This document shows positions 58,408 to 63,082 of a DNA stretch of 64,000 bases, piece by piece. Where the stretch lies: positions 163,940,209 to 164,004,208 of the forward strand of contig NC_055988.1 of NCBI RefSeq assembly GCF_018446385.1, given 5' to 3'. Under the pieces are notes generated by a model that ran no database searches, was not told the origin of the DNA, and saw nothing but the letters and a program-made list of their open reading frames with translations. A program made the translations under genes and the position numbers. The DNA comes from Zingiber officinale (lineage: Eukaryota > Streptophyta > Magnoliopsida > Zingiberales > Zingiberaceae). The first letter of the stretch is position 1. Every line of letters starts with the position of its first letter.

Positions 58408-60235
58408 TATTGATGCAATTATCCTCGAGTCAAGATTGACCAAGTTGACTGAGCTCGAGTTGGTTCAAGCTTGAATTTTGATGTTTTGACAATATGTGAG
58501 AGAGAAGTCAAGTAGGTCAAGGGAGAACCAGATACTTGACTAAAAAAGTCCTAACTAAATGTTAGGAAATATATACTTCTAGTGGAGCTAGGCAGTGGAA
58601 GACCTAGTTGGAAACTAGGTAATGGAAGTCCAAGTGGAGTCAGACGGTGGAAGACCTAGTTTCCCCTAGTTGGGAACTAGGTAATGAAAATCCTAGTGGG
58701 GCTAAGTGGTGAAAGACCTAATTTGAAACTAAGCAATTAAAGTCCTAGTGGGTCTAGGTAATAGAAAAATCTAAGTGGACCAAAGGGTGACCAGACACTT
58801 TATGATTGGAAGTTCAACGGGAAGGTTGGTAAGGGAAAGTCTAAGTGACTCAAGGAGGACCGGATACTTAGTGAAAAAGTCCTGGCAGGTTAAGGTTGAT
58901 CGGATGCTAGGCATGAAAAATCCCAACAACTCACGGATGACTTTAACATTGGGCAAAAGAACCCTAAACTTAGATTCAAAGTTTAAGGTTGATCAATTAA
59001 TTAGGGTAACTGATTGACCAAAAGTGATCGATTGATAGCAGTTTTGTAGAAAATAGAAGGCTATCAAATCAATTAGCATAATCGATTAAGTATTGCTGAA
59101 TGGCAAGGTTTTCGTGAGGGAACACAAGGTTGATGAATTATTGGCTTAATCGATTTAGCATGGTCAATCAATTAAGACAATCAATTAAGAACTTTTCGTG
59201 AGATAACAGAAGGTGCTGGAATCAATTAGGTAAATCAATTCAGTAGAGGGTCAATCCATTAGACTAATTGGTCGAAGCATTTTCATGAAGAACAAAAAGC
59301 TTTTGAATTAATTGAGATGATTTATCAATCGATTAATGGATAAAAAAGAGTCATTCGGTAAGTTTTGAATAGTCGATCTGATATGACAATCGATTGGGGA
59401 TACGATCAATCGATTAGGAGATATTTTTTAGCCTAAAAGAAATCCTATAAAAGGGGGTTTCATGAAGACTTTGAAGTGAAGTGTTGTTGCATTTTGGAGT
59501 CAACAAGAGGCATTTTGGAGCAACAAGAGATCAAGCAAACAAGATGTTCATTGTATTTATATTTGCTTTCTTGTTTTTATTCTCGTGTTCAAACTTCACT
59601 ACAACAAAAACGTAAAAAGACAACAGATTTTATCTGTTGTCGTAGACCCTTTAAAACCATTGTAATTGATAGTATTGTTAAAAGTAGGGGCTACGATAAT
59701 GGTTTTAAATCATTGTCTTTGAATGAAAAGACAATGGTTTAAAATCATTATTATTTAGAGCACTTTTAATAACACTGCCAGTTACAACGATTTTTGGGGC
59801 TATAATAACTATTTTTTACTATTGTCTTTGAGGGTGATAAACAATAATAATAGTTTTAAACCATTGTCTTTTAAACTATTGTCTTTTAATATCAATATAT
59901 TATATTTCAATATAAATATATAATAAAGAATCATAATCACAAAAGAAAGAATATTCCCCACATCAATGTCATTCAAAATGTTACTTATACAAAAATTACA
60001 ATCACAAAAGAAGAAATATGTCTCGTGTTTAAATAAAATTTATCCCAATACAAATAAACAAATAAACTCTATTTATAACTAATGAACAATAGCCAAAAGA
60101 CTAGAAACTTATGATGATGGTTCATGCCATGTAAGATTACACTTAATTATTGTAAACCCAAGTCTCATTACAATCTTCAACTTGTAGGATTTCATTGGAC
60201 TCTTCTTTCTCACTTGCTGATTTTTTCATGTCAAC

Positions 60236-60350
60236 CTTTTCTAATATTGTTGATCATCAGTTCCATAATAAATCCAGTCTTCCCCACACCAGCTCCATCA
60301 AAAAGTCCAATCTTTCCACCTCTTTGATAAGGCACCAAGATATCAACATC
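60236..60350 (-). pseudogene. Captured fragment of mitochondrial ATP synthase beta
   Basis: On the minus strand, after an acceptor-like TAG, the frame reads [17 protein letters not shown], then [14 protein letters not shown] and NNIRKG, up to a possible donor. It matches the Walker A exon of the F1-ATPase beta subunit, normally (V)[32 protein letters not shown]. The P-loop core GAGVGKT is kept, while the flanking Gly and Val are replaced and one residue is inserted. Only about 38 codons remain. It is a transduplicated exon inside the CACTA element, not a working gene. Confidence 0.85.
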
Positions 60351-61392
60351 CTATTAATATCAAAAGAAATACACTGTTATACACATGAAAAAAACTTATT
60401 CTGAAAGAATAATAAACACACATATATTTTTACAATAGTTACCATAAGTGTGCCTTTGTTATTCTTTCAGGATCGTGAATGATTCCACAATTTAAAAGTA
60501 TACATAAATTTGAGATTTTATTTCTGAATATGCAAAAATATGATAATTTAGATTTTACCTTTATATTCTGCATCAGTCGTTGATCTTGTGTAGGGTAACA
60601 CTTAAACAACTTCCAAGTAAATTGCAAGTGCTAACATGCACAAGGCACAATATAATCTACAATTATAGAAATAAAAACAAAGTTGTTAGATCTTGTAAAA
60701 ACAATCATATAAATCAAGGAAATGTTTATCAGATCTTGTAAAAACATGCAAGTTATTTATGATCAAAAGAGACAAGTTTCAAGATCTTTGAAGAACAAAA
60801 AACTTGAACTTAAAAGAAATAAAAATGCAATGCTAACTTTAAATTGATAAACTATTCAGATTATGTTGATGTTGTTTTTAGAAAGTATAACAAATAGAGA
60901 AATACAAAAGTATATTACATATAAAGAAAATCATTCACATAAACTAAAATAGAATAACTAGAATTTAAATGTTAAAGAAAAACACACTAAGTTTGTAAAA
61001 ATATTAAGGAAATTCATGTTTTCCCATAAGAAATCTCGAAATCAACCAAATTTATTAAAAATAAGGTGCATGAAGCATATTCTTATGAATTTGCTGATCT
61101 TATTTTTTTTTAGTGCAATTAAATATTCACAATTAACATATAAAAAATATACATGAATAAGCAAGTAATGTGATATATCCCAAAAACTAAAAAGTAAGTA
61201 ATATAGCATATCACAATTTACTATAATCTGATAGTGTAAATAAGAATATAATAACAAAAATAATAATATTAAACATGGTGTATACCATTCTTAGTTTGTA
61301 ATGCAGAGAATGAATAAGGAATCTAAAAAAAATCCAACAAGAAAAGTAAAGAGTTTAAAAGCATTAAAAAGATGATAGAAGCACCTTCTATG

Positions 61393-62055
61393 TAAAGTGC
61401 AGGGCACTCCGACCGTTCAAATAGTCCATTCTTGTCACCTTCAGGATTTTCGATCTAGTTAACTCTCAACTCCCAAAAAAAAGGATTTCAATTTATGTAA
61501 ACATAAAAAGGAAATCTTGACGAACCCATACATAGAATACTTCCATAGATGAGCAGAGTCTGCACCACCTCCCAATGACCGTGACGACAAGCTTGCATCA
61601 ATGCTGTCTATATATTCAATTTCATTCATGATAAACACAAAGATCAAACCTTTCGAATATGGAAGTTCCAATAAAAGGATAGATTTAAATCGCAAGGCAA
61701 AAGAGGGAGAAAACAAGTAATCGAATACCTGGCCACAATAGTTTCTCAGATTCACGTCAGACCCATTCTCTAGCAGCAACGTCACGATCTGAGGAGACAC
61801 GCTGAGTTAGTAAGACAATCCACAACACGGCGAGAAACATTGAAAGGTCAAATCTTGTAAGAGGAGAAAAAAACCGACCTCGTTGTGGCCCTTGGCGGTG
61901 GCGAAATGTAGAGGGGAGTTGAGGCCACGGAAGGTGGAGTACTTGACGAGTCCAAGGTTGAACTCCAGCAACATGCAGGCTTCGATTAGATCACCATCCC
62001 GAGCCACAGACACCAATCTCTCGCTAGAGGCCGAGCACTCGAGAGAGTTCCCCAT
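61393..62055 (-). pseudogene. Captured 5' part of an XB3/XBAT32-type ankyrin E3 ligase gene
   Basis: Minus-strand exon 1 (61879-62055, 59 codons from [20 protein letters not shown]), exon 2 (61729-61788, IVTLLLENGSDVNLRNYCGQ) and exon 3 (from 61607, [19 protein letters not shown]) join in phase with good splice signals. An exon 4 piece (about 61393-61440) reads VTRMDYLNGRSALHF and then meets a stop. In XB3/XBAT ligases this is the N-terminal MGNS myristoylation-type start and the first ankyrin repeats. The later repeats and the RING domain are absent. Leader-like sequence continues to about 62,500, so the capture may include the parent's 5' UTR. The piece sits inside the CACTA element and could at most give a short ankyrin-only protein. 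Confidence 0.88.
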
Positions 62056-63059
62056 GCCTCCAAACCCAAGCCTCCAGCGTGGGGGCAAGTCGATGGCTGC
62101 CGAGGAGCGTGCTACGCCCTCTCCCTCCTCTTCTTTCGGTAGATACAAACGCTGCTTGGGTTCCAAGGGAAGCGGAAGCAAACAAACTTAGCAATGGGTC
62201 GAAATGAAAAAGGGGTGGATGTTGGTGTTTCCAATCTACCTCAACATTTTGATATACAAACAAAAGTACTGCAGTTCTAGGGAAACAACTATCACTTTGG
62301 GGAGAGGAGCTCTAAGGAGTGTAGTTCGTCAAGAGGGATGGAAGGCAAAAACATGTGAGGAGAGGAGAAGATCGTATGAGGAGATCGTGAAGAGGAGATT
62401 GTGTGAGGAGAGGGAACATGAAGAGATCGTGTGAGAAGAGGAGAAAGACACAAAAAGCTAGGGTTTAGGAAGACTAAGGATGGAAAACAAGCACCCAAAA
62501 TTTTTCAAAGAGGGAATCAAAACACGGCATTCGAAGGAAAAAAAGAAAAAGAATTAAGTCAAAGACAATGATTTTAATAAATCATTGTCTTTGACTATAT
62601 AAAATAATATAAAAATATAATGATTTAAAAAATTATTATCGTAGCCCTAAAAAATATTTTAAAATAACAATTTTAGAAAATTATTATAAAATACGTTGTT
62701 GATTTTAAAAAAAAATCCGCTCAACGACAACAATTTTTACAAAATTGTTATCTTTTATCTTTTGGGGAGCTCAAAGACAACGATTTTATTAAAAACTGTT
62801 GTCTTTGAGTAAATTAACAACAGTTCCTTCTAAAATCATTGTCTTTATGTTGTTATCTTTTAACAGCTTTGTTGTAGTGCTTATATGAGGCTCCTTTACC
62901 TCTGAAAAGCTTCCGAGAATGAGATTTTCATAGTGAATCTCTGAGAGAGAGTTAGATCATAGATTAGTCATTTTAAGGAGATGAATACCAAGTAAATCGA
63001 AGGTGTTAGTGTTTTGATGTATTTGCTTCAAGTTTCTGCTGTAAATGAAGTGAGCTATT

Positions 63060-63082
63060 CCCCCCCCCCCCCCTCCCCCCCA
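63060..63082 (+). repeat. Poly-C tract
   Basis: Fourteen C, one T and eight C lie near the 3' end of the solo-LTR-like repeat. Such tracts are prone to length error in sequencing and assembly. Confidence 0.9.

Follow-up and report, generated by a model that had tools for sequence, protein, structure and literature searches.

We analyzed a 64,000-nucleotide stretch of the genome of ginger, Zingiber officinale (RefSeq assembly GCF_018446385.1, contig NC_055988.1; C3:163940209-164004208 in the coordinates used here), which we call the window. Positions 59597–62879 of the window are occupied by an ordinary Pack-CACTA element, i.e., a transposon of a known gene-carrying kind. With a probability of roughly 0.87, we consider that a left arm containing an old exon of the ATP synthase beta gene (ATPB) and a right arm of another type here enclose 876 bp of DNA from an XB3/XBAT31-type ubiquitin ligase gene (XBAT), and that this cargo is a silenced passenger. 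An earlier note, prepared from the window sequence without database searches, had described a CACTA element with matching ends, a CTT duplication, and subterminal arrays, in which fragments of two unrelated host genes lay in one orientation. Our results support this description, with both fragments on the minus strand of a single element.

Boundaries and copies of the element

The element is 3283 bp long and non-autonomous. Its terminal sequence CACTACAACAAA occurs exactly at 59597 and exactly again ending at 62879, and the copies of the target-site duplication CTT are at 59594–59596 and 62880–62882 (no strand is assigned to the element, its duplications, its left subterminal array, or its right arm). 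With one mismatch or fewer, CACTACAACAAA matched the 64 kb only twice, in both cases at the element ends, where 0.46 matches were expected. At least two such matches were also obtained in 8 of 100 shuffles, so the ends by themselves are not decisive. The termini form an imperfect inverted repeat of 29 bp (83%). The subterminal motifs AAAGACAA/TTGTCTTT occurred 11 times in the two ends, including the left array at 59597–59890, and not at all in the middle; in 1000 shuffles the mean was 0.06 and the maximum 2, for a motif picked after the sequence had been inspected.

Two other copies, of the kind that the earlier note suggested looking for, were found in the 3.09-Gb assembly. The copy on C4 matched the element and its flanks at 96% over 4428 columns and had the same CTT duplication, with one changed base at the right end. 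The copy on C6 aligned with the element from end to end at 87%, with one change at one end, and was flanked by its own ATA target duplication. The published ginger assembly is haplotype-resolved (PMC8342452), and we therefore infer that matches paired on C3/C4, C15/C16, and C9/C10 are allelic. On the basis of the C3/C4 alleles and the C6 copy with its own duplication, the element is a single unit present at two loci.

In a six-frame Pfam search of the element at E 0.1, no transposase family was detected, the ankyrin and ATP-synthase pieces being the only matches and both on the minus strand; the element was accordingly classed as non-autonomous. The CACTA transposase family PF02992 is abundant elsewhere in the genome (6544 candidates, with all 150 that were scored passing the cut-off).

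Captured gene segments

The XBAT segment occupies 61391–62266 on the minus strand and is 92% identical to a gene on C16/C15. Because the homology takes in the introns, the 876 bp were captured as DNA and not as complementary DNA. The segment begins with 211 bp of 5′ leader or upstream sequence (62056–62266), followed by exon 1 with its natural ATG and donor (61879–62055), exon 2 with both splice sites (61729–61788), exon 3 with its acceptor (61536–61607), and the first 48 nt of exon 4 (61391–61438), which has an acceptor but no donor and is cut by the capture junction. Exons 1–4 had been reported with their natural start and splice sites. This holds for exons 1–3, the start, the exon-1 donor, and both exon-2 sites; exon 4 breaks off at 61391, and the exon-3 donor GT is lost in all three copies (CT in the window and on C4, AT on C6). 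When exons 1–3 were joined, Pfam recognized ankyrin repeats (Ank, 1.6e-16).

Exon 1 matched seven places in the genome, i.e., the three elements, two of the parent gene, and two of a paralogue (84% at this exon), the last two sets being read as allelic pairs. The C16/C15 parent had no CACTA arms in the stretches examined, and continued into more ankyrin exons and a RING domain of the XB3/XBAT31 family (PF24921, 7.5e-13; 48.8 bits, just below the cut-off of 50). Its C15 partner was 98% identical to the C16 gene in the coding sequence and identical over the captured exons. The junctions of the XBAT segment were the same in all three copies.

The second fragment is an ATPB exon remnant at 60231–60350 on the minus strand, in which 39 residues are followed by TGA (PDB match, 1.5e-11; Pfam, 1.1e-4, below the cut-off). 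Genes for mitochondrial-type ATP synthase beta were located via PF02874, and the nearest of the four fetched, at C8:132.86M, matched at 84% over 182 columns, intron included. Thus, parents with matching exons and introns were found for both fragments. The earlier note identified this piece as the Walker A exon. Its acceptor AG is retained at 60351–60352; its end, its donor, and the Walker A motif itself are altered. In the genes, the exon ends in ...KAHG followed by GTTAGT or GTTTGT, whereas the remnant stops matching at AAAGG, short of the last exon bases and the natural donor. The remnant contains 3 additional nt, and its Walker A motif is DGAGVGKT instead of the GGAGVGKT of the genes (first Gly to Asp). 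Captured intron sequence occupies 60351–60473 on the same strand. A piece of it, about 30 bp long, is present in both orientations (60398–60427 and 60444–60473, with a 16-nt spacer), and this inverted copy may reflect a switch of template during capture.

The two-donor load reported for the element does derive from two donors, but the ATPB exon is no separate capture peculiar to this element. Among 40 places scored out of 288 first-look candidates, the 39 besides the window matched the exon at 91–95%. Left-arm sequence flanked the exon at 29 of 29 other fetched loci, 27 of which reached the terminal base of the element or the next base, and the exon is therefore family-wide. Purifying selection on it was suspected because the whole left arm often matched at only ∼78–89%. 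In gapless windows this signal disappeared: the two halves of the exon had medians of 93.3 and 91.5, compared with 93.4 at element positions 300–450 and 92.3 at 930–1195.

Arms and sister elements

The left arm common to the sister elements extends over 59597–61389 (minus strand, with the ATPB fragment inside), where its alignment to a sister carrying a CCT chaperonin fragment (L041; 85.7%) stops. The right arm, at 62276–62879, contains subterminal repeats and the inverted terminal repeat, and when the XBAT copies were set aside it was nearest to the L044/L074 type (88%). Short stretches of the left arm also matched other chromosome pairs: 61187–61389 at C10:30.42M/C9:32.85M (90–91%), and 46–48 bp within 61221–61268 at C15:125.36M/C16:102.85M (94%). 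These matches suggest further captured or shared pieces. Shortly beyond the element, positions 63060–63081 form a 22-nt run composed almost entirely of C.

Past the left arm, the bodies of the sister elements diverge, with joins near element positions 810, 839, 924, 1195, 1552, and 1793. Target duplications were TCT in L041 and ACA in an element spanning the places L093 and L094. The body of L041 encodes part of a CCT/TCP-1 chaperonin (Pfam 3.5e-8; 33 bits vs. a cut-off of 34.3), and its cargo DNA matches a C15/C16 pair at 93–94% and a C7/C8 pair at 86%. Within L041:2244-5859, the cargo switches at about L041:4131 to sequence that matches C22/C21 and five more places at 86–91%, and a further donor is likely beyond this point. 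A GH85 fragment of the ENGase type (4.4e-11) at L016:2055-3128 is joined to the common left arm at element position 1195, and the body of L014 contains a Piwi domain (8.4e-14). No Pfam match was found in the six frames of the L033, L020, and L074 bodies. The L075 and L076 places on C16, with arms ∼12 kb apart, were considered as an autonomous element, and proved to be a sister element into which a Copia-type retroelement has inserted (C16:81298300-81312700); this is a retroelement the long terminal repeats of which are 97% identical and the type of which was judged from its frames.

A 6.25-kb element at C3:147325666-147331920 comprises L094 and a left part covered by L083 and L093. It carries ATPB, Argonaute, nucleotidyltransferase (PF22600, 3.8e-6), and type II peroxiredoxin (PDB 1tp9, 7.6e-10) fragments, together with a weak C2H2 stretch (0.0038, below the cut-off). 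The nucleotidyltransferase piece had 33 matches in the genome, many at 95–98%; HESO1 was considered as its identity, and because PDB gave only weak matches to GLD2 and URT1, the piece was left unnamed. All supported fragments in the sister bodies and in L094 run in the ATPB direction, on the minus strand. The plus-strand frames of six sister bodies contained no supported fragment, and those of L094 gave only a doubtful phage profile (0.0043, below the cut-off).

Argonaute fragments among the sister elements

An Argonaute segment adjoins the ATPB exon in L014:1790-3129, L094:1-1345, and L081-L092; none was found in the window element. The L014 body matched 40 scored places at ≥ 90%, itself included, out of 249 candidates, and the ATPB arm lay upstream of the body in all 12 places sampled. 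The commoner ATPB–Argonaute junction had 48 matches in the genome at three mismatches or fewer, and a reversed control had none. In a protein search, 24 of the best 150 of 162 Argonaute matches fell in 14 places presumed to be genes, and the other matches listed fell in at least 118 places outside them. Together, the protein and L014-body searches gave at least 131 distinct places with fragments of the PIWI domain outside the 14 presumed genes, a count that includes both haplotypes and for which CACTA arms were checked at a subset of the places.

The parent is the gene at C3:13.23M (L096, C3:13226100), which is paired with C4:11.40M. Three of the five copies tested matched it at 89.6–90.2% over 722 columns, and the other two at 87.1% over 410 and 93.8% over 192 columns; the next-closest gene, on C10, matched at 80–82%. 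In the longer copies tested, the match of about 90% runs through exons and introns. Each of the five copies has between 65 and 200 perfect 21-mers in common with 701 bp of the gene. The best PDB match was plant AGO10 (4e-48). We use the name AGO1 on the basis of the motif HPHPGED, in place of which AGO10 has HPENGEE.

Decay of the XBAT cargo and alternative explanations

The earlier note had proposed a chimeric transcript that starts from the XBAT leader, and an ankyrin-only product that acts as a decoy of the parent ligase. The retained start, the exon 1–2 splice sites, the 211 bp of parental leader, the open frame of the window copy, and its low share of amino-acid changes (see below) are in favor of such a maintained gene. 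Furthermore, phase 0 is shared by exon 1, exon 2, and the ATPB exon, and a product of 118 residues would on paper result from an open frame joining them or from reading into intron 3. The intact splice sites on which the transcript was predicated are not all present, as described above, and the idea of a maintained decoy is not supported by the comparison of copies. Stops interrupt the frame at codon 7 in the C6 copy and within exon 3 in the C4 allele; the window copy is open. Codon 6 is changed from Gly to Glu, which we assume would spoil an N-myristoylation motif. Where the ancestral base was known, C>T or G>A accounted for 17 of 20 coding and 21 of 28 noncoding changes on the element branch of the window copy. 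The stops in two of three copies and the predominance of such changes, with the loss of the exon-3 donor in every copy, argue against a conserved decoy.

Nor is a maintained decoy supported by the divergence, which was similar at coding and noncoding sites: 0.061 vs. 0.073 in the window, 0.077 vs. 0.089 on C4, and 0.077 vs. 0.076 on C6. The ratio of nonsynonymous to synonymous substitution rates against the C16 parent was 0.25, 0.32, and 0.41, respectively, compared with 0.05 between the parent and its paralogue. In a crude neutral simulation, amino-acid-changing fractions on C4 and C6 were near the simulated values (0.53 vs. 0.59, with 17.5% of runs as low, and 0.59 vs. 0.63, with 26.7%). Coding changes were fewer than simulated in all copies (24 vs. 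39.7 in the window, 30 vs. 43.6 on C4, and 27 vs. 43.0 on C6), in a comparison that includes the constrained parent branch, which must account for part of the deficit. We read the XBAT cargo as probably decaying, with at most weak earlier constraint, and consider a maintained chimeric gene very unlikely. It is also unlikely that the parent gene is repressed by matching small interfering RNAs (siRNAs) from the XBAT fragment. Of the 856 21-mers of the fragment, the C16 parent contains 174 in identical form and the C15 parent 184, and according to PMC13317346, captured fragments in maize act as reservoirs of siRNAs against both donor genes and related elements; however, just three XBAT-bearing copies were found, two of which are alleles. 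The least probable explanation, and an extremely unlikely one, is that each of the two fragments remains from an insertion of its own, one nested in the other. The occurrence of the left and right arms on different sister types would fit it, but a single target duplication encloses all parts, no further CACTACAACAAA end with one mismatch or fewer exists in the window, and the C6 copy, which repeats the same parts in the same order inside its ATA duplication, largely refutes it.

Several observations weigh against the reading of the element as two joined arms with a passenger. The amino-acid-changing fraction of the window copy was 0.46 vs. 0.60 in the simulation, and only 2.2% of 2000 runs were as low. 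Neither an autonomous partner with matching arms nor an empty site opposite the C6 copy was found; the flank of the C6 copy is repetitive (2021 candidates, with 80% for the best match elsewhere). The right arm had no match in L041, and L041 is the sole CCT-type element whose right end was seen. In addition, L070, a CCT-type sister, joins CCT-type sequence with part of an L074-type cargo; both arms may therefore once have shared one element, which weakens the version with two elements, and replacement inside one element may be the alternative to fusion.

Discussion

Pack-CACTA elements were reportedly treated by Catoni in 2019. The ginger element resembles those described in PMC8903248 and PMC13317346 in its CACTACAA ends, the absence of a transposase inside, the host DNA in its body, and the combination of common terminal parts with a variable body. 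It also has arms of differing types, as predicted by the model outlined there, in which neighboring CACTA insertions fuse around host DNA; a left arm like that of L041 and a right arm like those of L044/L074 fit this model. From the arrangement of the arms and junctions, we infer that XBAT was added once, between arms that are seen in different sister types. The left arm would already have held the old ATPB exon. The XBAT piece would then have been taken up as DNA, either through the fusion of two adjacent CACTA insertions whose inner ends were lost or through a template switch in the course of gap repair. Later movement of the element would have depended on transposase supplied in trans. The cargo would be a silenced passenger, none of whose protein products is under selection, although a chimeric RNA may occasionally arise.

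Two known systems offer comparisons. Tgm-Express1 of soybean (PMC1947982) is likewise a CACTA element in which pieces of unrelated host genes retain their exons and introns; it has five fragments, and L093/L094 has four well-supported fragments and a weak fifth. Tgm-Express1 lies in an F3H intron and its chimeric spliced RNAs were demonstrated, whereas such RNAs of the ginger element are putative. In rice, CACTA elements with miR820 contain sequence that matches the host silencing gene OsDRM2 (PMC3459959). That case involves a microRNA, whereas the ginger sisters hold direct genomic fragments of Argonaute, and any regulation by them is putative. In titles and abstracts, we found nothing on Argonaute fragments in CACTA elements and no CACTA study in ginger; subscription journals were outside this coverage, and absence is unproven.

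It is conceivable, but improbable, that the clan is an anti-silencing parasite, in which RNAs from the fragments would reduce the activity of AGO1 or draw off the siRNA pool, and would thereby aid the spread of CACTA elements. The RNA nucleotidyltransferase fragment that some Argonaute-bearing sisters also carry might then be part of the same load, and the XBAT element would represent a lineage in which the Argonaute module was lost or never acquired.

The window element displays how such a transposon is built up, with an old exon in a common arm, a gene segment that joined later in a single event, and arms that are seen on different sister types; it provides a clear example from nature for the published neighboring-insertion model. 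The Argonaute load of the clan matters more than the window element itself. With a clan that has multiplied AGO1-type fragments, it can be tested directly whether host sequence, once captured, can disturb the pathway that silences transposons, and the counts of Argonaute and ATP synthase genes in ginger may include transposon fragments.

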